This document shows positions 1,821 through 12,926 of a stretch of DNA of 64,000 nt, in pieces. The position numbers were made by a program, and so were the translations under genes. The stretch's first letter is position 1, and every line of letters begins with the position of its first letter. This DNA comes from Pseudobdellovibrionaceae bacterium (GTDB lineage Bacteria > Bdellovibrionota > Bdellovibrionia > Bdellovibrionales > Bdellovibrionaceae), in contig CANFQX010000018.1 of assembly GCA_947449255.1 (NCBI GenBank), positions 1 through 64,000 on the forward strand. The letters run 5' to 3'. The notes beneath the pieces were generated by a model, which searched no databases, was not told where the DNA came from, and worked only from the letters and a program-made list of their open reading frames with translations.

Positions 1821-3065
1821 CTAGGGAGTTCTAGATTTCATCACCGCATGAACATGCTCTAGAAATTGGGGATGCCTTTGACAAACACGATCAAAGGCTT
1901 CTTTATCAAGATGATATAAATCACAAAATTCAACAGACCGGGCCGTGGCCGTTCTTTTTCTCGCGGCCAAAAGGGCCATTTCACCAAAGAAGGCCCCTTC
2001 ACTGAGGGTCACCTTCACCACATCATGATCGTCAAGAATTTGCACCTGTCCTTTGTAAATGAAATACATCGCATCACCAGGATCTCCAGCCCTAAAGATT
2101 TTTTCTCCAGGGACGTAAACCCGAGGCTCGAGTTCAGTCATCAGCTCTTCCACAAGATCAATTTTTGCATCCCTCAAAAAGGGAACTTTTTGCAGGACTG
2201 GCTTGTTGATGTGAAAAAACAGCTCAGATTGAATTTTCTTAGGTAAGTCCTCAACAATGGCATCGTCTCTATAGCCTTTTTTATTTCTCCACATATAGTT
2301 ATAATAGGAGCGGACTTTATTTTTAGTGTCATCGGGGATATGATGAGACTTCATAAAGGTCTCCACTTTATCTAAGTTATTCATATGATGTTCCCTAGCT
2401 GCATCTTTACGAGCCAGCAAGCTTGCAACGTTTGAGATGATAAAACCAAAAAATCCAACACCCACAACTTGAACACCGCAGGTGAATAGCATCTGCGCCA
2501 CTGTCTTGGCGCTGATGTCCCCATATCCAACGGTTGTTAGGGTTGTAAAAGACCAATAAAGGGCTCGAACATATTCTAAGACTTTGTCGGCCTCGACTCC
2601 CGAGGTGCCACTTCCCAGGGCAATCCAAGCACAGGCAATCATGTGCAACAGCAAAGGCATCATAACAAAAATGGGAACAATTCTGTAAATGACCGGCTGT
2701 AAATGATCGAAATAATCTAAAAAACTTCGCACATGTCGAGTGTGACGAACGACTAATAAATTGAGAATTAACAAATCGCCTGGCGGTAGATGAAAAGCAA
2801 AAGTGGCAATAAAAGATAGTGGCACGACAAACATTAAATCCAGCAGCACTGTGAAATTCAGCCATGATTTTAATTTAGAAATATTTTTTTCAGGCTTTTG
2901 AAAATAGAGGTAAATATTCACACATGAAATGGCTGAAATTAATAAATCCGAAAGACCTTCAAACTGATAATTTGGAAGATATCCAATCAGCCGGAGTGGA
3001 ATCCAGAATCCGATCAGAAAAGCACCTATGATTGAGAAAGCTTTTAGAAATTGCAATTTATTCAT
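1821..3065 (-). CDS. Cyclic-nucleotide-gated potassium channel (SthK/LliK-like)
   Basis: This 414-residue membrane protein has six predicted helices in residues 10-210. An S4-like segment carries spaced arginines (R107, R110, R113), and the pore loop has the K+ selectivity filter TVGYGD at 178-183. A C-linker of eukaryotic CNG/HCN type follows (about 220-290, with YYNYMWRNKKGYRDD). The cyclic-nucleotide-binding domain runs from about 295 to 405 and keeps the phosphate-binding cassette FGEMAL (360-365) and Arg371-Thr372. Channels of this layout, such as SthK of Spirochaeta, open on cAMP. I infer a cAMP- or cGMP-gated K+ channel of the inner membrane. The nucleotide preference cannot be read from the sequence. 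No cyclase is encoded nearby. Confidence 0.9.
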   Translation of the reverse strand: MNKLQFLKAFSIIGAFLIGFWIPLRLIGYLPNYQFEGLSDLLISAISCVNIYLYFQKPEKNISKLKSWLNFTVLLDLMFVVPLSFIATFAFHLPPGDLLILNLLVVRHTRHVRSFLDYFDHLQPVIYRIVPIFVMMPLLLHMIACAWIALGSGTSGVEADKVLEYVRALYWSFTTLTTVGYGDISAKTVAQMLFTCGVQVVGVGFFGFIISNVASLLARKDAAREHHMNNLDKVETFMKSHHIPDDTKNKVRSYYNYMWRNKKGYRDDAIVEDLPKKIQSELFFHINKPVLQKVPFLRDAKIDLVEELMTELEPRVYVPGEKIFRAGDPGDAMYFIYKGQVQILDDHDVVKVTLSEGAFFGEMALLAARKRTATARSVEFCDLYHLDKEAFDRVCQRHPQFLEHVHAVMKSRTP

Positions 3066-3352: not shown

Positions 3353-3592
3353 ATGTCAGAAATAAATCATCTGAATCTGAGTAAAAATGGACTGGTCTTT
3401 GATCCTCGAACAGGCGAAAGTTACCAGCTAAATCCTATAGCACAAAAAATTATTGTTCTTTTTCAGTCAGGCAAGACATCTGAACAGGCAGCTAAATTAA
3501 TTGCCGATGAGTTTCATATTTCGCTCGAGCAAGCTTTTTCAGACATCCTTGAATTTCAGGTCCAACTATCAATTATTGGCCTAGCATCCTAA
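3353..3592 (+). CDS. PqqD-like recognition/chaperone protein
   Basis: This 79-residue protein matches the PqqD fold, a small winged-helix domain that presents a peptide or partner to a modifying enzyme (RiPP recognition element). It shows a beta-hairpin with YQLNPIAQKI, then the helix SGKTSEQAAKLIADEF, then a last helix ending in SIIGL. This is the usual PqqD pattern LNPTA..I...L..G.T..EIA. It is the first gene of the six-gene operon. Its stop overlaps the ATP-grasp start (TAATG), so the two are translationally coupled. No radical SAM enzyme, pqqA-like precursor or HPr-kinase-like gene is next to it. I infer that it helps the ATP-grasp or decarboxylase bind a peptide or carrier substrate. Confidence 0.75.
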   Translation: MSEINHLNLSKNGLVFDPRTGESYQLNPIAQKIIVLFQSGKTSEQAAKLIADEFHISLEQAFSDILEFQVQLSIIGLAS

Positions 3593-4638
3593 TGAAGAAT
3601 ATCATTGGAATTTCAGGAATTAATGCCACTGATAACCCAGGTCCTGGCTGTGCCGTTGCCCGAAGCTTAGCTGAATCGAAAAGCAAGCCGACTTTGATTG
3701 GCTTAAGCTATGACATTCACGATCCAGGCAATTACATGTCAGATTTATTTGAAAACAGCTTTATGATGCCCTACCCGACAAAGGGTTGGCAGGGACTTCA
3801 AGAGTCCCTCTCCACAATCAAGGAAAAAACCAATTTAAACATGCTAATACCGTGCTTGGACGCTGAATTGCCGTTGATGATTAAACATAAACCCATCTTA
3901 GATAAAATGGGTTTGCGAACTTTAATGCCCACGGAAAAACAGTTTGAACTTCGAAGCAAAGATTTGCTTACACAACTGTCCGAAGAAATTGGCTGCCTGC
4001 ACCCGAAAACTAAAGTGGTCTATAGTATTGATGAGCTGGTGAATGTTCTAAAAGGTGAGATCCCTCTCCCAGCTGTTGTTAAGGGAAAATACTATAAAGC
4101 TTATATCGTCTACAATATTGAAACGGCTATTTTAAAAGCGACAGAAATAGCCGCAGAATGGGGTTTTCCAATATTAGTTCAGGAAAAAATTCACGGGCAA
4201 GAAATTAACATGATCGGTCTTTCAAATAACGAAGGCGAAGTAGTAGGAAGAGTTTCCATTAAAAAACAATTAACGACCCACTTGGGTAAAGTATGGACTG
4301 CTGTAACAATCAGAGATGAACGCCTTGATGCCTTGTGCGATCGCTTTGGAAAACTGACAGGCTGGCAAGGCCCCTTCGAACTTGAGTGTATGACCAATGA
4401 AAATGGCATTTTCCTCATCGAAATCAACCCTCGTTTTCCGGCCTGGGTCTATTTTGCTACAGGCGTCGGAGTAAATCTTCCCCAGATGCTTGTTGATATT
4501 ATTGATAAGGGTGAGTGTAAGAAAAACCTGCACTACCCAACTGGAAAATATTTGGTTCGTTACACCTCTGAATTTGTTACTGACCTGGTAGATTTTCAAA
4601 ATCTATTAACATCAAAGAATCGCAAAGGCCTCTTATGA
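3592..4638 (+). CDS. ATP-grasp ligase (CarB/PylC-like)
   Basis: This 348-residue protein has the ATP-grasp order. A Rossmann-like N-terminal domain runs over 1-110. The nucleotide-binding lysine region VVKGKYYKA follows at 162-170, then QEKI at 197-200. The metal-binding residues lie in FELE (262-265) and EINPR (277-281). Such enzymes join a carboxylate to an amine or thiol through an acylphosphate. The carbamoyl-phosphate-synthase-like ending resembles amino-acid ligases such as PylC, but the substrate is not evident. The start overlaps the pqqD-like stop by one base and its stop overlaps the next start (ATGA), so the three proteins should be made together. I infer an amino-acid or peptide ligase that works with the following decarboxylase. 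Confidence 0.85.
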   Translation: MKNIIGISGINATDNPGPGCAVARSLAESKSKPTLIGLSYDIHDPGNYMSDLFENSFMMPYPTKGWQGLQESLSTIKEKTNLNMLIPCLDAELPLMIKHKPILDKMGLRTLMPTEKQFELRSKDLLTQLSEEIGCLHPKTKVVYSIDELVNVLKGEIPLPAVVKGKYYKAYIVYNIETAILKATEIAAEWGFPILVQEKIHGQEINMIGLSNNEGEVVGRVSIKKQLTTHLGKVWTAVTIRDERLDALCDRFGKLTGWQGPFELECMTNENGIFLIEINPRFPAWVYFATGVGVNLPQMLVDIIDKGECKKNLHYPTGKYLVRYTSEFVTDLVDFQNLLTSKNRKGLL

Positions 4639-5963
4639 CAAAATATTCAAAGCCAAGTATCGTAAAAATTAGTAATCCGCTCTACACCAAACATGGAAGC
4701 GGTGCTCAATCTTACCATCCTGTGAGAGACGCCATTGAAGGTGTTGCTGTTGACGAACTTGTAAAAAAATATGGTTCTCCTCTTTTTGTCTTTTCAGAAA
4801 GAATCTTACGTCAAAAGTATCAAGAGGCAAAATCTTCCATCGAGTCAGTATATCCAAATGTACAATTTGGCTGGAGCTATAAAACTAATTATCTGAATGC
4901 AATTTGCCAGGTTTTTCACGACGAAGGTGCTATTGCCGAAGTTGTCAGTCATTTTGAATACCAAAAGGCCCGGGCCCTCGGCATCCCAGGGCACAATATT
5001 ATTTTTAACGGTCCCTACAAGCCTGAGGCTGCTCTCGAACAGGCTATTTCAGAGGATGCTCAAATTCATATCGATCATTTTGATGAAATAGCTGACATTG
5101 AATCTATAGCAAAACGTCTAAATAAAAAAGTTAAAGTTGGAATACGCATTAATTTGAACTGTGGTATTTACCCAGTTTGGTCCCGCTTCGGATTTAATTT
5201 AGAATCAGGTCAGGCTTGGGCGGCAGTACGTCGAATTGCACAGAGTAAAGACATCCAATTGGTGGGACTGCACTCACACATTGGAACATTTATTCTTGAT
5301 CCTCATGCCTATGGCCGAGCTATCGATAAAATCAGTCAGTTTATGCGTGAAACTGAAAGCTTGGTTGGCTACAATCTCGAATTCCTCGATCTTGGTGGTG
5401 GCTTCCCTAGTCGCAGCAGTCTCAAAGGTGTCTATCAGCCCCCCGAAGTTGTGGTTCCGCCACCCCAAGTTTATGCGGAAGCCATGGCAAATGGCTTAAA
5501 GTGGCTTACAACAAGAAAAAATATGCCCAAATTGATCATGGAGCTCGGTCGATATCTGGTCGATGAAGCTGGCTTTTTAATCACATCTGTGATGGCAGAT
5601 AAACTGCTCCCTGATGGACGCCGATCTTATGTTTTAGATGCTGGAGTGAACTTACTTTACACCTCGACATGGTACAAATTCAAAATTGAAATAGAAAAAG
5701 AACCCACTGGAATTTCGGAGCCTTCTATCCTTTTTGGCCCTTTATGCATGAATATAGACATTGTCGATGAAGCCATCTTGCTGCCAAGACTAGAGCGCTA
5801 TGAAAGACTCATTCTTTCTCCGGTTGGAGCCTACAACGTTACGCAGTGGATGCAATTTATTCAATATAGACCTGCTGTTGTCATGATAAATGAAAAATCT
5901 GAAACAAGAATTATTCGCCGGGCTGAGACTCTCGATGATATTAATCGAATGGAAAATCCATAG
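4635..5963 (+). CDS. PLP-dependent alanine-racemase-fold decarboxylase (LysA/ornithine decarboxylase-like)
   Basis: This 442-residue enzyme of fold-type III PLP decarboxylases keeps the key residues. Lys83 in SYKTN forms the Schiff base, HSHIGT lies at 213-218, and the glycine loop GGGFP at 254-258 binds phosphate. Cys371 and Asp375 sit in GPLCMNID, and GAY at 398-400. It should therefore be active on a basic or dicarboxylic amino acid. The specificity segment around the substrate carboxylate is unlike that of standard LysA, and the operon context argues against ordinary lysine synthesis. The N-terminus carries about 35 extra residues. Its start overlaps the ATP-grasp stop and the next gene begins 2 bases after its stop. 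Diaminopimelate, ornithine/arginine and carboxy-polyamine decarboxylases are the alternatives. Confidence 0.85.
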   Translation: MTKYSKPSIVKISNPLYTKHGSGAQSYHPVRDAIEGVAVDELVKKYGSPLFVFSERILRQKYQEAKSSIESVYPNVQFGWSYKTNYLNAICQVFHDEGAIAEVVSHFEYQKARALGIPGHNIIFNGPYKPEAALEQAISEDAQIHIDHFDEIADIESIAKRLNKKVKVGIRINLNCGIYPVWSRFGFNLESGQAWAAVRRIAQSKDIQLVGLHSHIGTFILDPHAYGRAIDKISQFMRETESLVGYNLEFLDLGGGFPSRSSLKGVYQPPEVVVPPPQVYAEAMANGLKWLTTRKNMPKLIMELGRYLVDEAGFLITSVMADKLLPDGRRSYVLDAGVNLLYTSTWYKFKIEIEKEPTGISEPSILFGPLCMNIDIVDEAILLPRLERYERLILSPVGAYNVTQWMQFIQYRPAVVMINEKSETRIIRRAETLDDINRMENP

Positions 5964-5965
5964 TC

Positions 5966-8056
5966 ATGTTATCATTCCTCCGTGATTATTTTCCTAAAAT
6001 AGAAAAATGCCTAAATTCCTATGGCATTTTATTTTTCCTCGAATCAAGAATTCTAGGAGTCATTATTTTGGGTATCACTCTTTTACATCCCAATATTGGA
6101 GTGATGGGAGCTCTTGGAATTCTTTTCACTTTGGGTTTATTGAACCTAATATCAATTCCCATGACCTCAGTGGTTACATCTCCCGCCTTAAGAAATGGGC
6201 TACTGATTGGTTTATTGTTGGGTGACCTCTATGTCCTTCAATTTAAAACTATAATATTTTTGATTCTTGCACTGATTCTTAATCTTGGAATTACATCAGC
6301 AACAATCACGTTGTTTAAAAATCATCAATTGCCAGTTTTATCTTTTCCATTTGCGATTTTTGCATTTATTATTGGTGGACTTAAATCAAAACTGACATTT
6401 TTAGCAGATGCTACAATTTATTTTACTGATAGCATTGATTTGTCATTTCTTCCAAGTGGGATCTTTTTATTTTTTAAGTCCATGGGATCTTTGTATTGTA
6501 CACCAGATGCATTTTCGGGGGCCTTAATCTGGCTGGCCGCTTTATTTTTTTCACCCCTAACCGGCTTGTTTTTATTTGCTGGCTACTTCATTGGAAGTTT
6601 TATTGAATCCTTTTTTGTTATAGGTATAAGTTTACCCTATCGATATTCAGATGGCTTTAACTACAGTTTGATTTTCACCGCCTTTGCGGGATATTTTTTA
6701 TTCCCTTCTATATTTTCAATAGTTCTAGCTTGTTGTTTTGTAGCCATGGCTGCGATTTTAATTCTGGCCGGCGAAGTCTATCTGGCACCCTTTAATTTAC
6801 AAATCATATCTATTCCATTCAATATTGTCACCTTGATGGGACTTTTAGCACTTAAATCACTCAAACCTTTTTCTTTAAGCAGTGCTTTTTTTCGAAAACC
6901 TGAAATCAATCTCGAAAGAAGTCGACTTCTTTGGCAGCGACATAGATTTGGTGAAGTTGGAATTTTTCTTCCCATAGCCACCGACAGCGCAAGGAAATGG
7001 AAAGTTCAGCAAGGAATCAATGGTGGTCTCACTCACAAAGGACTATGGCAACATGCTTTGGACTTTGTGTGCATTGATGCTGAAGGAAAAAACTTTATCA
7101 ATAGAGGGATTGAGCTCTCTGATCACTATACTTTTGGTGCAGACGTTATATCCCCTCTTCAAGGAACTGTTGTCGCTTGTTTAGGAACTGATGAGGACAA
7201 TAATATAGGCCAATTAGTGAACACTCGAAATTGGGGCAACTATATTATCATTCGTGGTATCGGTGGGATTTATGTTGCCCTCGCACATCTTCAAAAAGAT
7301 TCTTTACTAGTAAAGAATGGCGATATTCTTGAAGTCGGTCAAAAAATTGCAAAAATAGGCAATAGCGGGTATTCGCAAACTCCTCATCTTCACCTCCAAG
7401 TTCAATGGACGGCGGACATTGGTGCAACGACAATGCCCTTCCATCTTTTAAATTATGGGCTTGGGGACTCTTTGATTTTTCATGGCGTACCTCAAGAAAA
7501 TGACATAATTTTTAATCCATCACACAATCAAGCTGTAGAGCAAGCCCTCAACTTTAAAGTAGATGAGGCCCTAATTTTTCAAACCACAACAGAAGGTTCC
7601 TCTGAAAAACAAATCATTAATATTGTAACCAAAGTTGATGATACAACAGGTACTTTTTTCCTCTCTGATGGTATCTCTCGTTTGAGTTTTGCAAAAGTTG
7701 GCTTGCAGTTTTACTTTTATGGACTTGAGGGAAACAAACACTCTGCTCTTTGGGATCTCATGGCGGCAGCTCCAAAGATCCCTATGATCTTCAAAGACAA
7801 ACTATCCTACACTGATTCATTGCCTGCTGAGTTTTACGGCAATCCTATGCGCCGATTCCTCCATAATATTTTTCAAATTTTAAAACTGAGTGTCACCGAA
7901 TCTAAAGGACACTATCAGGTCAGTGCCCAAGGTTTAGAAGTTTGGGGAACCTGTCAGTTTTTTGGTAAAGAGAAAAAAACATATATTAAGCTTGATCCCT
8001 CTGTAGGGATTCAAAAATTCTCAGTTGGAGATAAAGTCTATGAATTCAAATCATAA
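5966..8056 (+). CDS. Urea-transporter domain fused to M23 metallopeptidase
   Basis: This 696-residue protein joins two domains. Residues 20-305 are strongly hydrophobic and follow the two-fold urea-transporter pattern: LPVLSFPFA at 122-130 ends the first repeat, and GSLYCTPDAFSG through GFNYSLIFTAF forms the second. Residues 340-485 are an M23 (LytM-type) zinc peptidase with His363 and Asp366 in QHALDF, His441 in AHLQK and HLH at 474-476, so all metal and catalytic residues are present. About 200 further residues follow without a recognised domain. The parts together suggest a channel for a small polar molecule tied to an enzyme acting on, or a domain binding to, peptidoglycan. The side of the membrane facing the M23 part depends on the helix count, which I cannot settle. 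It is the fourth gene of the operon. Confidence 0.85.
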   Translation: MLSFLRDYFPKIEKCLNSYGILFFLESRILGVIILGITLLHPNIGVMGALGILFTLGLLNLISIPMTSVVTSPALRNGLLIGLLLGDLYVLQFKTIIFLILALILNLGITSATITLFKNHQLPVLSFPFAIFAFIIGGLKSKLTFLADATIYFTDSIDLSFLPSGIFLFFKSMGSLYCTPDAFSGALIWLAALFFSPLTGLFLFAGYFIGSFIESFFVIGISLPYRYSDGFNYSLIFTAFAGYFLFPSIFSIVLACCFVAMAAILILAGEVYLAPFNLQIISIPFNIVTLMGLLALKSLKPFSLSSAFFRKPEINLERSRLLWQRHRFGEVGIFLPIATDSARKWKVQQGINGGLTHKGLWQHALDFVCIDAEGKNFINRGIELSDHYTFGADVISPLQGTVVACLGTDEDNNIGQLVNTRNWGNYIIIRGIGGIYVALAHLQKDSLLVKNGDILEVGQKIAKIGNSGYSQTPHLHLQVQWTADIGATTMPFHLLNYGLGDSLIFHGVPQENDIIFNPSHNQAVEQALNFKVDEALIFQTTTEGSSEKQIINIVTKVDDTTGTFFLSDGISRLSFAKVGLQFYFYGLEGNKHSALWDLMAAAPKIPMIFKDKLSYTDSLPAEFYGNPMRRFLHNIFQILKLSVTESKGHYQVSAQGLEVWGTCQFFGKEKKTYIKLDPSVGIQKFSVGDKVYEFKS

Positions 8057-9263
8057 ATATTATCTTCTATTTCTATTTTTTGCATTTTCCTTTTTCCACT
8101 TAGAAAAAGGAATCCCAGAGATTTCTTCGCAGGCAAAGGCTCTCTCCTCTGATTCAGCGATGAAGGACTCTGAATTGAATTTTGTAATTGGTTATGGAGC
8201 CTACATTAACAAAGACTATCCCACCTGTGCTGATTCATTCTTTAATGCTCTAGATCTGGAAGAACCACTCATTCAACGCGCTCGGTTTTATCTGGCCCTT
8301 TGCCAGTATTATTTAAAAAACAACACCTATGCTGCTGCTAATCTTAATCTATTGAATAAAAATTCATTAAACAATTCAGAGAATAACGCAGCCAAAAAAC
8401 TTGAAGGTTATTTATCTAAAGAACTTACAGATCTCAGAATGCCTAAATGGTTATTTATTCCATATGCTGGAACTGGAAGCTATTCAGCAAACGATCCAAG
8501 TTTAGATTCCAGTGTCTTTTTTGGTTTAGCCCTAGAATCTTATCTGCCGACTTACAGTTTGAAGGCCTCGCTTGAACAATTTTCCATCAAAACAAAAAAT
8601 GGCGCTGACGGATACAATCAAACTCAGTGGCTTTTAGGTGGTAGCAGCTATTTCAAAACATTGATTGAATATAGAGCCAGAATTTTTGGCATATCCAGCA
8701 CTAATACAAACTATAATAATATATTGGCCGGAGCTGTTGGCGCGTCGAAGTGGTTCTTGGATGGAACCAACAAGATTGGCCTGGATGGATATATGACAAA
8801 TTATCCAAATTCAGTCTTTGGCCATATGACCGTCAACCAGCTGACAGTTTCTTCCTTACAATATATCATGGTGCGCCCAACATGGAGTCTTTTGGGACAA
8901 TTATCAATGAACTATGTTGTTCCTAATGCTGAATTGAAAGATGCCACGAATTCTATCCTTAAGCTAAGTCCATCTTACGTTCGGTATATGGCAGACCTTG
9001 TGTATGGACAAAGCAACTTGACTTATTCCATAGGACTTTCAATGGGAAAAGAAATTTTTGGGATTCATAATGATGGAGCCGTTCTTTTCTCAGGAGCAGA
9101 AGAACATGGACTGGGGTGGAATATGGCTATCCAATTTTTTAGCCCTGCGAAAAATTCAATTAAGATCCAATATTCTACAGAAAATTACATTAAAGGTTCA
9201 AATACCGAATTAGTGGCTGCAAGTGTTGGTATATTTACGCTATTGGGTAGTTATTTATTTTAA
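8040..9263 (+). CDS. Outer-membrane beta-barrel protein with N-terminal TPR-like region
   Basis: This 407-residue protein starts with a signal peptide (YYLLFLFFAFSFFHLEKG). A helical TPR-like stretch covers about residues 40-115. The rest, about 280 residues, alternates aromatic and polar residues in beta-strand rhythm and ends in Phe (GSYLF), as outer-membrane barrels do. The layout recalls YaiO-type TPR/barrel proteins. I choose the ATG at 8040, because GGAG at 8027-8030 is correctly spaced; a TTG at 8025 is the alternative. The gene overlaps the end of the transporter/peptidase gene by 17 bases, which ties it to the same operon. I infer an outer-membrane pore or anchor for the pathway product. 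Confidence 0.7.
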   Translation: MNSNHKYYLLFLFFAFSFFHLEKGIPEISSQAKALSSDSAMKDSELNFVIGYGAYINKDYPTCADSFFNALDLEEPLIQRARFYLALCQYYLKNNTYAAANLNLLNKNSLNNSENNAAKKLEGYLSKELTDLRMPKWLFIPYAGTGSYSANDPSLDSSVFFGLALESYLPTYSLKASLEQFSIKTKNGADGYNQTQWLLGGSSYFKTLIEYRARIFGISSTNTNYNNILAGAVGASKWFLDGTNKIGLDGYMTNYPNSVFGHMTVNQLTVSSLQYIMVRPTWSLLGQLSMNYVVPNAELKDATNSILKLSPSYVRYMADLVYGQSNLTYSIGLSMGKEIFGIHNDGAVLFSGAEEHGLGWNMAIQFFSPAKNSIKIQYSTENYIKGSNTELVAASVGIFTLLGSYLF

Positions 9264-9286
9264 TTAATAAAAAAGGAGATTCTAAT

Positions 9287-9931
9287 ATGAAAAGTTCAAA
9301 GTTGATGAAACAAATTTTAACAGCCTCTTCCCTTTTGTTGGTATACAGTTTAAATGCTTTTTGCCTTACCGTGACAGAGCAAACAGAAATCTATGATTCT
9401 TATGCCGTTGAGGCCAAAGGAAACATTGAGGCCGCTTTGCAAAAGATGATTAAAATACATGCAGGAAATCCTGATGATTATTTTGTCAATTATCGCTTAG
9501 GATATTTGCTGAGCATAAATAAGAAATATGCCAACGCCATAATCCACTATCAAAAAGCTGCACAACTTAAACCTTTAAGTTTAGAGCCTTTACTAGGTAT
9601 GTCCCTCGCGGCTTACTACGCCGGCGATGATTCTAAGTTGGTCATCGTTTCAAAAGATATTTTAAAAATTAATGCACAAAACTATTATGGTTTTTTAAGG
9701 ATGGCTGGTGCACAAATTAGACTCAAAGATTTTGAAGGTGCATTAAAAACCTCTTCTGAGGCGCTTAAATATTACCCCCTAGATGCAATTCTATTGGAAC
9801 AAAAAGCATTCGCATTGAATGCTTTGGGCAAAGTCAGTGATGCGAAACATGTTGCCCAGGAATTAATATTACTAAGCCCTTCTAATTCATTTGCAAAGTC
9901 TTTAATGAATTCGGTACTTTCTAAAAAATAA
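9287..9931 (+). CDS. Periplasmic TPR protein
   Basis: This 214-residue protein has a signal peptide (LMKQILTASSLLLVYSLNAF) followed by about four tetratricopeptide repeats. Typical repeat positions are visible, such as YRLGYLLSINKKYANAIIHY and LRMAGAQIRLKDFEGALKT. A good AAGGAG lies before the ATG. It is the last gene of the six-gene operon, 23 bases after the barrel gene. TPRs mediate protein-protein contact, so it could link the inner-membrane transporter to the outer-membrane barrel across the periplasm. No catalytic residues are apparent. Confidence 0.75.
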   Translation: MKSSKLMKQILTASSLLLVYSLNAFCLTVTEQTEIYDSYAVEAKGNIEAALQKMIKIHAGNPDDYFVNYRLGYLLSINKKYANAIIHYQKAAQLKPLSLEPLLGMSLAAYYAGDDSKLVIVSKDILKINAQNYYGFLRMAGAQIRLKDFEGALKTSSEALKYYPLDAILLEQKAFALNALGKVSDAKHVAQELILLSPSNSFAKSLMNSVLSKK

Positions 9932-10007: not shown

Positions 10008-11405
10008 ATGTATAAAACGAAGATAAAAGACATCAGTTATGACTTTGAGAATCTTAAAAACCTGATGGCCAAAGCATCTCCTGTGCGTTCAGGGGATTAT
10101 TTGGCGGGTGTTGCGGCTTCCACAAACATGGAAAGGGTCGCCGCACAGTGGGCCCTTGCGGATGTTCCTCTAAAACAATTTCTTAATGAAGCCCTGGTTC
10201 CCTACGAGTCTGATGAAGTCACTCGCCTGATTATGGATGAACATGATAAAATGGCCTTTGCGCCCATCAGTCACCTCACCGTCGGAGATTTTAGAAATTG
10301 GCTGTTATCTGAAAACACGACCAGCGAAACACTTCGATCTGTTTCAGCGGGCTTAACACCCGAGATGGTGGCTGCGGTTTCTAAAATTATGCGTATTCAG
10401 GATCTGATCTTGGTCGCAAAAAAATGCCGCGTGGTCACCCGCTTTAGAAATACTATTGGTAGTGAAGGATGCTTGTCTACTCGCCTACAACCCAACCATC
10501 CCACTGATAATCCAGCTGGAGTTGCAGCAAGTCTTTTGGATGGCTTGATGTACGGATGTGGTGATGCGGTTATTGGCATCAATCCGGCCTCTGATAATCT
10601 TGAAGCAACAACGCGCTTACTGCACATGCTCAATGACGTGATTCAACGCTATGATATCCCGACGCAGTCTTGCGTTTTGTCCCATGTGACCACAACCTTA
10701 AAAGCGATTGAACTAGGCGCCCCTGTGGACCTGGTTTTTCAATCCATCGCAGGCACTCAAAAAGCCAACAGCAGTTTTGGTATCAATATTAAATTATTAA
10801 ATGAAGCCCACGTTGCAGCACTTGAACTCAAAAGAGGAACTCTGGGCAACAACTGTATGTATTTTGAGACAGGACAAGGCAGCGCCCTGTCTGCAAATGC
10901 AAATGAGGGTATGGATCAACAAACTTGCGAAGCTCGTGCCTATGCCGTTGCTCGAAAATTCAACCCTTTGCTGGTCAACACTGTAGTGGGCTTCATTGGT
11001 CCAGAATACCTTTACGATGGAAAACAAATCATTCGTGCAGGCCTAGAGGATCACTTCTGTGGAAAACTCTTGGGATTACCTATGGGCTGTGATGTTTGTT
11101 ACACCAATCATGCAGAGGCAGATCAAGATGATATGGATATCCTTATGACATCTTTAGCTGTTGCGGGCGGCACTTTTATTATGGGTGTGCCTGGAGCTGA
11201 CGATATTATGTTGAATTATCAATCCACCTCTTTTCACGATGCGCTTTATGTACGCCAAGTTCTGGGCTTGAGGCCTGCTCCAGAGTTTGACAATTGGCTT
11301 CAAAAAAATCAGATTTTTAATTCCAAAAATCAGCTCCTTCAGCAGTCCGAGGTGCCGGCCTTATTTAAAGCCTCCCTGCAAGAATTAACTGGAGGACGTT
11401 CATGA
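10008..11405 (+). CDS. eutB: Ethanolamine ammonia-lyase large subunit
   Basis: This 465-residue protein matches EutB over its whole length. EutB is the catalytic TIM-barrel subunit of the adenosylcobalamin-dependent lyase that turns ethanolamine into acetaldehyde and ammonia. Recognisable stretches include the SGDYLAG start region, RLQPNHPTDNPAGVAAS, FETGQGSALSANA and GLPMGCDVCYTNHAEADQDD. The gene overlaps eutC by 4 bases (ATGA), so the subunits are coupled. No microcompartment shell, eutA reactivase, eutE or regulator genes flank it. Acetaldehyde would have to be handled by enzymes encoded elsewhere. Ethanolamine from phosphatidylethanolamine is a plausible substrate source. Confidence 0.96.
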   Translation: MYKTKIKDISYDFENLKNLMAKASPVRSGDYLAGVAASTNMERVAAQWALADVPLKQFLNEALVPYESDEVTRLIMDEHDKMAFAPISHLTVGDFRNWLLSENTTSETLRSVSAGLTPEMVAAVSKIMRIQDLILVAKKCRVVTRFRNTIGSEGCLSTRLQPNHPTDNPAGVAASLLDGLMYGCGDAVIGINPASDNLEATTRLLHMLNDVIQRYDIPTQSCVLSHVTTTLKAIELGAPVDLVFQSIAGTQKANSSFGINIKLLNEAHVAALELKRGTLGNNCMYFETGQGSALSANANEGMDQQTCEARAYAVARKFNPLLVNTVVGFIGPEYLYDGKQIIRAGLEDHFCGKLLGLPMGCDVCYTNHAEADQDDMDILMTSLAVAGGTFIMGVPGADDIMLNYQSTSFHDALYVRQVLGLRPAPEFDNWLQKNQIFNSKNQLLQQSEVPALFKASLQELTGGRS

Positions 11406-12178
11406 GTAAAAAAAATTCCCCAAAAGCCTCCCACGATCCTTGGCGCGGACTCACTCACTTCACCAATGCACGCATTGGACTTGGAAGAGCAGGCATGAGT
11501 CAAACGACCCAGGCTCACCTTGATTTTCAATTGGCTCATGCCATGGCTCGTGATGCCGTTCATCACCCTCTTGATTTTAAATTATTACAAGAAAACCTAA
11601 AAATGATGGGACACCAGAGTCTTATTTTAAATTCTCAGGCCGAAAATCAGTCGATGTATTTACAGCGACCCGACCTTGGCCGATTGCTAAGCACTTCCTC
11701 AAAAGATGAACTTAAAAGAAATATTCAAACTGCTATAGATGCCACAGTGGTGGTCGCTGACGGCTTGTCTTCAAAAGCTATCGAACAACATGCAGAAAAT
11801 TTTTTAAAGCTTCTGCTGCCCGAACTGAAATTTAAAAACTATCAGGTTTCCCCCATTTCCCTAGTCAAACATGGACGAGTGGCCGTCGGCGATGGCATTG
11901 CCGAAAACTACAAGGCCAGACTGTGTATTCTTCTCATCGGAGAAAGACCTGGACTCAGTTCCCCTGACAGCATGGGAATTTATTTTACCTTTCAAGCTAA
12001 ACTCGGCCAAACAACAGATGCCGACCGCAATTGCATTTCTAATATTCATAAAAATGGTTTGAGTTATCAACAAGCCCTTAAGAAGTTATTGTATCTCATT
12101 GGTGAGTCGGAAAAATTGCAGCTCTCAGGGGTTCAATTAAAAGATGAAACAACTGAAAACGAGCTCATCAAAAAATAG
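11402..12178 (+). CDS. eutC: Ethanolamine ammonia-lyase small subunit
   Basis: This 258-residue protein is EutC, the small subunit that completes the cobalamin-binding site of ethanolamine ammonia-lyase. The N-terminal LTHFTNARIGLGRAG and the central VVADGLSSKAIEQHAE and VVADGLS-type motifs are typical, as is LLIGERPGLSSPDSMG. Its ATG overlaps the eutB stop. Length agrees with the family. It is followed 16 bases later by a glyoxalase II-like gene, suggesting a shared transcript. Confidence 0.95.
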   Translation: MSKKNSPKASHDPWRGLTHFTNARIGLGRAGMSQTTQAHLDFQLAHAMARDAVHHPLDFKLLQENLKMMGHQSLILNSQAENQSMYLQRPDLGRLLSTSSKDELKRNIQTAIDATVVVADGLSSKAIEQHAENFLKLLLPELKFKNYQVSPISLVKHGRVAVGDGIAENYKARLCILLIGERPGLSSPDSMGIYFTFQAKLGQTTDADRNCISNIHKNGLSYQQALKKLLYLIGESEKLQLSGVQLKDETTENELIKK

Positions 12179-12194
12179 AGGCTTTGGAGCATTC

Positions 12195-12926
12195 ATGGGA
12201 CAATCTAAAGACATTCAAATAGATATGATTTCAATCTTTAAAGATAATTATGTCCCAGTGATCATCTATAAAAACTCATCGGCCTGTCTTGTGGACCCGG
12301 GAGACTCTCCTCCGGTGCACCGCTACCTTTCAGACAGAAACCTCAAACTTGAGGTCATTCTCATCACCCACCACCATCCGGATCACATTGGAGGCGTTCG
12401 AGAGCTTTTAGAATTGCACCCAAAGGCCCGGGTGATCGTGCCCAATGACAAAGATTTTGCCGGCCACGATTCTTTTTCGCTGCGAATTTTTAATGAACAA
12501 TTGTCCTTAGTCTGCATCAAGACTCCAGGACACACCTTGGATCATGCGGTTTATTATTGCGGAGATTTAGATTCACTTTTTTGCGGCGATCTCGTCTTTG
12601 GACTTGGCTGTGGCAGGGTTTTTGAGGGCACCATGGCGCAAATGTTCTCAAGTCTTGAGAAAGTTAAGAAACTTCCTCCGACGACAAAAATTTATTGCGC
12701 TCATGAATACACTGAACACAACTTAAAATTTATTTTGGAAAATTTAGATCAGCTCAGTTTAGAGAATCCTGCTTCATTCAAAGAATATCAACAGAACCTT
12801 CATTCACTTCGCCACCGGGGACTTCCGAGTGTTCCCCTCCTATTGGCTCAGGAATTGACCAACAATCCCTTTCTTTCTGCGAAAACACTTGAGGAGTTTA
12901 CCTTCTGGCGAAAGCTCAAAGGTTAA
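12195..12926 (+). CDS. gloB: Hydroxyacylglutathione hydrolase (glyoxalase II)
   Basis: This 243-residue metallo-beta-lactamase-fold hydrolase cleaves S-lactoylglutathione to lactate and glutathione in methylglyoxal detoxification. The metal site THHHPDHIGG (58-67) is present, as are PGHT, CGD, the glyoxalase II signature GCGRVFEGT and YCAHEYTEHN. I choose the ATG at 12195, which has TTTGGAG just upstream. An ATG at 12144 in the same frame lies inside eutC and would add 17 non-conserved residues. It follows eutC at 16 bases, so a role in handling reactive carbonyls from ethanolamine breakdown is possible but is inference. Confidence 0.87.
   Translation: MGQSKDIQIDMISIFKDNYVPVIIYKNSSACLVDPGDSPPVHRYLSDRNLKLEVILITHHHPDHIGGVRELLELHPKARVIVPNDKDFAGHDSFSLRIFNEQLSLVCIKTPGHTLDHAVYYCGDLDSLFCGDLVFGLGCGRVFEGTMAQMFSSLEKVKKLPPTTKIYCAHEYTEHNLKFILENLDQLSLENPASFKEYQQNLHSLRHRGLPSVPLLLAQELTNNPFLSAKTLEEFTFWRKLKG

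Follow-up and report, generated by a model that had tools for sequence, protein, structure and literature searches.

Do the six genes at positions 3353-9931 of a 64,000-nucleotide stretch from a Pseudobdellovibrionaceae bacterium (GCA_947449255.1, contig CANFQX010000018.1; the whole stretch is called the window here) form one system and, if so, what might that system do? A first-pass annotation of the window had read them as an operon for an amine or peptide-like compound that is placed in or exported through the cell envelope. The six families that it named, and the five junctions (three of them overlaps, by 1, 4 and 17 bases, and two of them gaps, of 2 and 23 bases), were found exactly as given from the open reading frames (ORFs), all on the + strand, from the sequence, and from Pfam, with the barrel recognised by AlphaFold2. 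The six genes are one real conserved system, made up of the following parts, where UT-M23 denotes a urea-transporter-like channel fused to an M23 peptidase.

3353..3592, + strand: gene 1, PqqD-like protein, 79 aa (Pfam PqqD; position upstream of ATP-grasp).
3592..4638, + strand: gene 2, ATP-grasp ligase, 348 aa (Pfam ATPgrasp_Ter; conserved residues; PDB relative 2pn1).
4635..5963, + strand: gene 3, pyridoxal phosphate (PLP) decarboxylase of the alanine-racemase fold, FigC-like, 442 aa (Pfam; PDB match FigC 7kh2).
5966..8056, + strand: gene 4, UT-M23 fusion protein, 696 aa (AlphaFold2; Pfam; adjacency).
6002..6943, + strand: urea-transporter-like channel domain, residues ~13-326 of UT-M23 (structural alignment to UT-A2 and dvUT).
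6956..7486, + strand: M23 metallopeptidase domain, residues ~331-507 of UT-M23, predicted to be cytoplasmic (zinc and catalytic residues; LytM fold; charge bias).
7487..8053, + strand: C-terminal domain of UT-M23, mostly beta, no family match (secondary structure of the model; the fold search barely covers this domain).
8040..9263, + strand: gene 5, outer-membrane protein, helical N-terminus and 14-strand barrel, 407 aa (AlphaFold2; barrel fold matches).
9287..9931, + strand: gene 6, small tetratricopeptide repeat (TPR) protein with a signal-like N-terminus, 214 aa (Pfam TPR_14 and TPR_17 over cut-off).

The gene upstream (1821-3065) is in the opposite orientation, and ethanolamine ammonia-lyase genes start at 10008, after a gap of 76 bases. 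Promoter-like sites are no more frequent than chance predicts (19 against an expected 19.8), no terminator-like site was found at the operon end, and an Rfam search gave no match. Since promoters and a terminator give no guidance, co-transcription rests on the overlaps between the genes and on their conserved order.

That order was followed by scanning an ATP-grasp alignment against genome contigs, which gave at least 541 relatives; adjacency was counted on the best distinct ATP-grasp loci with enough flank. The decarboxylase gene adjoins the ATP-grasp gene in 59/60 loci, the UT-M23 gene is adjacent in 58/60, and the PqqD-like gene lies upstream in 73/74, while the full core of four genes occurs in 56/59. 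Since the loci were chosen by ATP-grasp alone, the other three core neighbours are independent evidence. Conservation of the neighbours in distant genomes had been set beforehand as the test of a system, and the locus passed it. Core proteins from other phyla are 27-69% identical and keep the same gene order, and the flanking genes vary between loci while the core stays. Only one non-core family recurs in as many as 25 loci, and this family is a large cluster with loose links, represented by a seemingly regulatory example. The recurrence of the same ordered genes across phyla is far beyond chance. Near UT-M23, a TPR gene is found in 48/65 loci, a barrel gene in 43/65, and both in 39/65.

The system occurs in about ten phyla, including Campylobacterota, Bdellovibrionota, Elusimicrobiota, Verrucomicrobiota, Gammaproteobacteria, Magnetococcales, and Aquificota. 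Its distribution is low and patchy: UT-M23 was present in 14/200 genomes in the phylum of a Sulfuricurvum member, 14/274 in the class of a Francisella member, and 5/195 in the phylum of a Verrucomicrobia member. Among 59 near genomes, including 23 others of the genus, no full-length UT-M23 relative was found, only generic M23 matches or nothing, and eight long relatives were found among 291 genomes of the window's phylum. Around six of these eight, the contigs show the succession PqqD, ATP-grasp, decarboxylase, UT-M23, barrel, TPR for as much of the locus as they include, with different flanks; in two loci (L060, L061) the fifth gene is in place and too diverged for BLAST detection. When the single UT-M23 protein served as query against genome contigs, no match was obtained, and a plasmid search with UT-M23 gave M23 matches only. 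In the ATP-grasp tree, Elusimicrobia are nested with strong support within the clade of the window and its Bdellovibrionota relatives. Together, the patchy distribution and the tree suggest horizontal transfer between phyla. Metagenome bins may hold stray contigs, so that single odd placements in the tree are weak evidence.

Several loci depart from the common arrangement. In one genome of the Sulfuricurvum phylum (G359:C1:851960-853369) the UT-M23 gene is decayed, with several stops; therefore, the system can be lost. Another genome (G726) carries two copies of the core cluster on separate contigs (L148, L149). In Marinobacterium jannaschii (L111) the ATP-grasp gene is present without the decarboxylase and UT-M23. 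Two divergent loci on a long branch (L062, L063) have ATP-grasp, decarboxylase, and UT-M23, followed by a longer gene unlike the barrel. In Campylobacterota versions there is an additional regulator of the OmpR type, whose receiver domain is weak (L103:16026-16640, L105:14949-15557, L129:5354-5938), and a Ser/Thr-kinase-like gene lies upstream in L158-L160.

What the enzymes may make is indicated best by the decarboxylase, which matches Pfam Orn_Arg_deC_N (E 1e-32) and Orn_Arg_deC_C (E 1.5e-9). Its best PDB match, and thus the closest solved structure, is FigC (7kh2, E 2e-90), which with FslC is the N-citrylornithine decarboxylase of rhizoferrin synthesis; after FigC it resembles diaminopimelate (DAP) decarboxylases, D-ornithine/D-lysine decarboxylase, and BtrK. 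The PLP lysine Lys83 and Cys371, Met372, and Thr343 are invariant in 36/36 relatives, and C371-M372 and T343 correspond to FigC C354-M355 and T327 in all of them. In FigC, Met355 takes the place of an acidic residue beside the catalytic Cys354, Thr327, Thr330, and Tyr331 take the place of acidic or DAP-binding Arg residues of its relatives, and citrate contacts are predicted for His357 and Arg387 (PMC7857480). The window enzyme shares the Cys-Met motif and the threonine, and has a near-invariant Tyr347 and a Trp346 at the place of Thr330; in contrast to FigC/FslC, Ile374 and Gln404 occupy the positions of H357 and R387 (36/36), and its partner is an ATP-grasp enzyme instead of a siderophore synthetase. 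FigC, SbnH, AcsE, BtrK, and MccE have been grouped as decarboxylases of conjugated amino acids (PMC7857480). Therefore, for the amino-acid decarboxylation first proposed, the substrate is probably a conjugated amino acid and not a free one, and the conjugate is not a citryl one, since the citrate contacts are replaced in all 36 relatives.

An identity as LysA was considered and rejected. The decarboxylase scores below the LysA cut-off (215 against 297.9 bits, NCBIfam TIGR01048), as it does far below that of FslC (248 against 500 bits); M372 and T343 stand where an acidic residue and an arginine bind meso-DAP in LysA, so that the residues diagnostic of LysA are lacking; and the genome carries a separate lysA (423 bits, over the TIGR01048 cut-off). 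In this lysA (L145/L165, G000:C17:24756-25922) the family match continues past an in-frame TAA near the C-terminus, through truncation or a sequencing error.

The two genes before the decarboxylase fit a building step. The ATP-grasp protein is over the cut-off for Pfam ATPgrasp_Ter (E 3.5e-7), the solved structure nearest to it is 2pn1, which is carbamoyl-phosphate-synthase-like, and K164, E265, E277, N279, and R281, the residues expected to bind ATP and metal, are kept in 30/30 relatives. The PqqD-like protein scores 34.7 bits against a Pfam PqqD cut-off of 23.4 (E 2e-8), and no other PqqD was found in the genome. As a stand-alone PqqD-like protein it resembles those of the HPr-rel-A, SynChlorMet, and lasso cassettes, which have other partner genes; it falls far below the curated cut-offs of these three families. 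Its C-terminus was considered as an attachment site and rejected, since C-termini differ among relatives (alignment A7). In some loci of the Francisella-class sample (L148:2505-3272, L149, L155, L156), the PqqD-like domain is C-terminal in a protein of 255-273 aa, whose N-terminal domain has no assigned family. Overall, these enzymes are of the kind that could make an amine or a peptide-like compound, in support of the first proposal.

The fourth protein joins two well-defined folds. Both Pfam UT (E 2e-26) and Peptidase_M23 (E 7e-13) match, and the AlphaFold2 model, built from 50 sequences, has a predicted local distance difference test score (pLDDT) of 92.1 and a predicted TM score of 0.89. 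Residues 1-326 align with human UT-A2 (Z 33.8, root-mean-square deviation (rmsd) 2.7, 306 aligned, VIA-align) and with dvUT (Z 33.6), and residues 331-507 with LytM (Z 14.0, rmsd 2.7). The zinc ligands and catalytic histidine of the M23 domain (H357, D366, H441, H474, H476) are invariant in 50/50 sequences. With dvUT and UT-A/UT-B the channel shares its fold, motifs, and two inverted repeats; it differs from them in the fusion to M23 and in I21 and S175, which replace the Gln and Glu of the dvUT motifs GQVMF and GEVMF, a second position that is mostly T/A/S/G in relatives. The Gln and Glu of these filter motifs have a functional role in dvUT.

On which side of the membrane does the peptidase lie? 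In SLC14 urea transporters both termini are intracellular by topographical modelling (PMC6844579). In UT-M23, Lys and Arg average 9.8 on the side of the termini and 2.4 on the opposite side, with the same sense in 50/50 sequences; when the two terminal flanks are left out, the bias holds in 41/50, the two sides are equal in 2, and the bias is opposite in 7. Since the termini of urea channels lie inside and the positive charge is on the termini side throughout, the M23 domain should face the cytoplasm, and the periplasmic peptidase of the first-pass annotation, together with its link to peptidoglycan, finds no support in this prediction.

The barrel protein has no Pfam match. Its AlphaFold2 model (nine sequences, pLDDT 79.8) shows a barrel of 14 strands after a helical N-terminus, and residues 136-404 fit the barrels of OmpG, FadL, and CymA (Z ~20); the model and these porin-type matches bear out the earlier assignment to the outer membrane. 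Relatives elsewhere are often of ~300 residues and lack the helical part. PelBC ranked first in Foldseek, but with an rmsd of 11.7, and exopolysaccharide export was rejected since general porins fit better. Members of the TPR family are of ~200 residues and have a signal-like N-terminus.

Taken as a whole, the six proteins can be read, tentatively, as a biosynthesis-and-release system of diderm bacteria, in which an ATP-grasp conjugate is decarboxylated to an amine, released by M23 at the UT-like channel, and passed out through the barrel; this is possible and could well be wrong. The ATP-grasp enzyme, judged from its family and intact active site, would activate a carboxylate as an acyl phosphate and join it to an amino acid or peptide, while the PqqD-like protein may present the substrate or hold the enzymes together. 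The FigC-like enzyme would then take off the carboxylate that remains free in the conjugated amino acid and leave an amine, as the active-site residues shared with FigC suggest. At the cytoplasmic face of the channel, where homology and charge place it, M23 may release the product at the channel mouth by cutting away its peptide carrier or cap. The small product might diffuse through the UT-like channel and leave by the 14-strand barrel, outward being the presumed direction, with the TPR protein as a possible periplasmic partner.

Such a design would pair an ATP-grasp enzyme with a decarboxylase of conjugates, in the manner of BtrJ/BtrK, and link both to a channel that contains its own protease. 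BtrJ of butirosin synthesis is an ATP-grasp ligase. In the same pathway, BtrK is a decarboxylase of the alanine-racemase fold whose substrate is a carrier-bound amino acid, and BtrI is a small partner protein (PMC7857480). The PqqD-like protein of the window does not appear to be an acyl carrier, and the BtrK score of the window decarboxylase is well below that of FigC. We know of no UT-M23, barrel, or TPR protein in the butirosin system. ABC exporters with a C39 peptidase likewise join a protease to a transport protein on the cytoplasmic side; theirs is a cysteine protease on an ATP-driven exporter, whereas the window has M23 on a passive channel fold.

Several observations weigh against release of an amine in this way. 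Known M23 enzymes work outside the cytoplasm, and known UT pores admit nothing but very small molecules, so that export of a sizeable amine is doubtful. No conserved small ORF for a precursor peptide was found within 400 bases upstream of PqqD in ~60 loci, the interval that was searched, and the search for a carrier protein whose attachment residue is conserved gave none, the PqqD-like C-termini being variable, though a carrier might be encoded elsewhere. Among the 65 loci, several lack a barrel or TPR gene.

The same parts might run the other way, with a small amide or peptide entering through the barrel and the UT-like channel, to be cut by the cytoplasmic M23 and its pieces processed by the ATP-grasp and decarboxylase enzymes. 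UT channels are equilibrative (PMC6844579), and hence direction is not fixed by the fold; a cytoplasmic peptidase at the channel mouth is compatible with import too, and the barrels are like those of uptake porins. However, ATP-grasp ligation is a building step and no conserved downstream catabolic genes were found, so that uptake and salvage seem rather unlikely.

Still less probable is a periplasmic M23 that cuts or trims cell-wall peptides while the enzymes make an amine attached to the wall. M23 enzymes do usually act on peptidoglycan, the nearest M23 folds are the cell-wall enzymes LytM, DipM, and Csd, and the barrel and TPR proteins are located in the envelope; however, UT topology and charge put the domain inside, no extra transmembrane helix joins the UT and M23 domains in the model, and every M23 domain has at least one cysteine (50/50), with an odd number in 25/50. 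Similarly improbable is a pathway for a ribosomally synthesised and post-translationally modified peptide, with the PqqD-like protein recognising a precursor encoded elsewhere, ATP-grasp and decarboxylase modifying it, and M23 making the cut at the exporter, as peptidase-containing transporters do, for although the PqqD domain is over its cut-off with weak similarity to lasso-peptide PqqD, and a channel-fused cytoplasmic peptidase parallels leader-peptide cutting at export, no conserved small ORF was found in the 400 bases before PqqD in ~60 loci and the UT pore is too narrow for a normal-sized peptide.

Directly after the operon, positions 10008-12923 encode EutB, EutC, and a hydrolase of the metallo-beta-lactamase fold. 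EutB had no match in 23 other genomes of the genus, so the Eut stretch also looks like an accessory acquisition. Whether the ethanolamine ammonia-lyase genes belong to the system was considered, and the idea was rejected, since the flanks differ in relatives and EutB is unmatched in the genus.

In the open-access full-text literature, the scope covered here, no description of the gene set was found, in agreement with the earlier statement that no named pathway with it was known, and the locus represents a widespread bacterial system that is undescribed as far as could be found. A gene set kept together across many phyla must do something worth keeping, and it would go unnoticed under the routine labels 'urea transporter', 'peptidase M23', and 'diaminopimelate decarboxylase'. 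The residues of the decarboxylase make the substrate class directly testable. If M23 is placed as predicted, UT-M23 is the first channel known to us that is joined to a cytoplasmic M23 protease. It is a doubtful but conceivable extension that the system represents a new class of export machine, in which a cytoplasmic M23 that forms part of a passive channel of the urea-channel fold would free a decarboxylated conjugate at the mouth of that channel, and its product may then be a secreted amine metabolite of about ten phyla.
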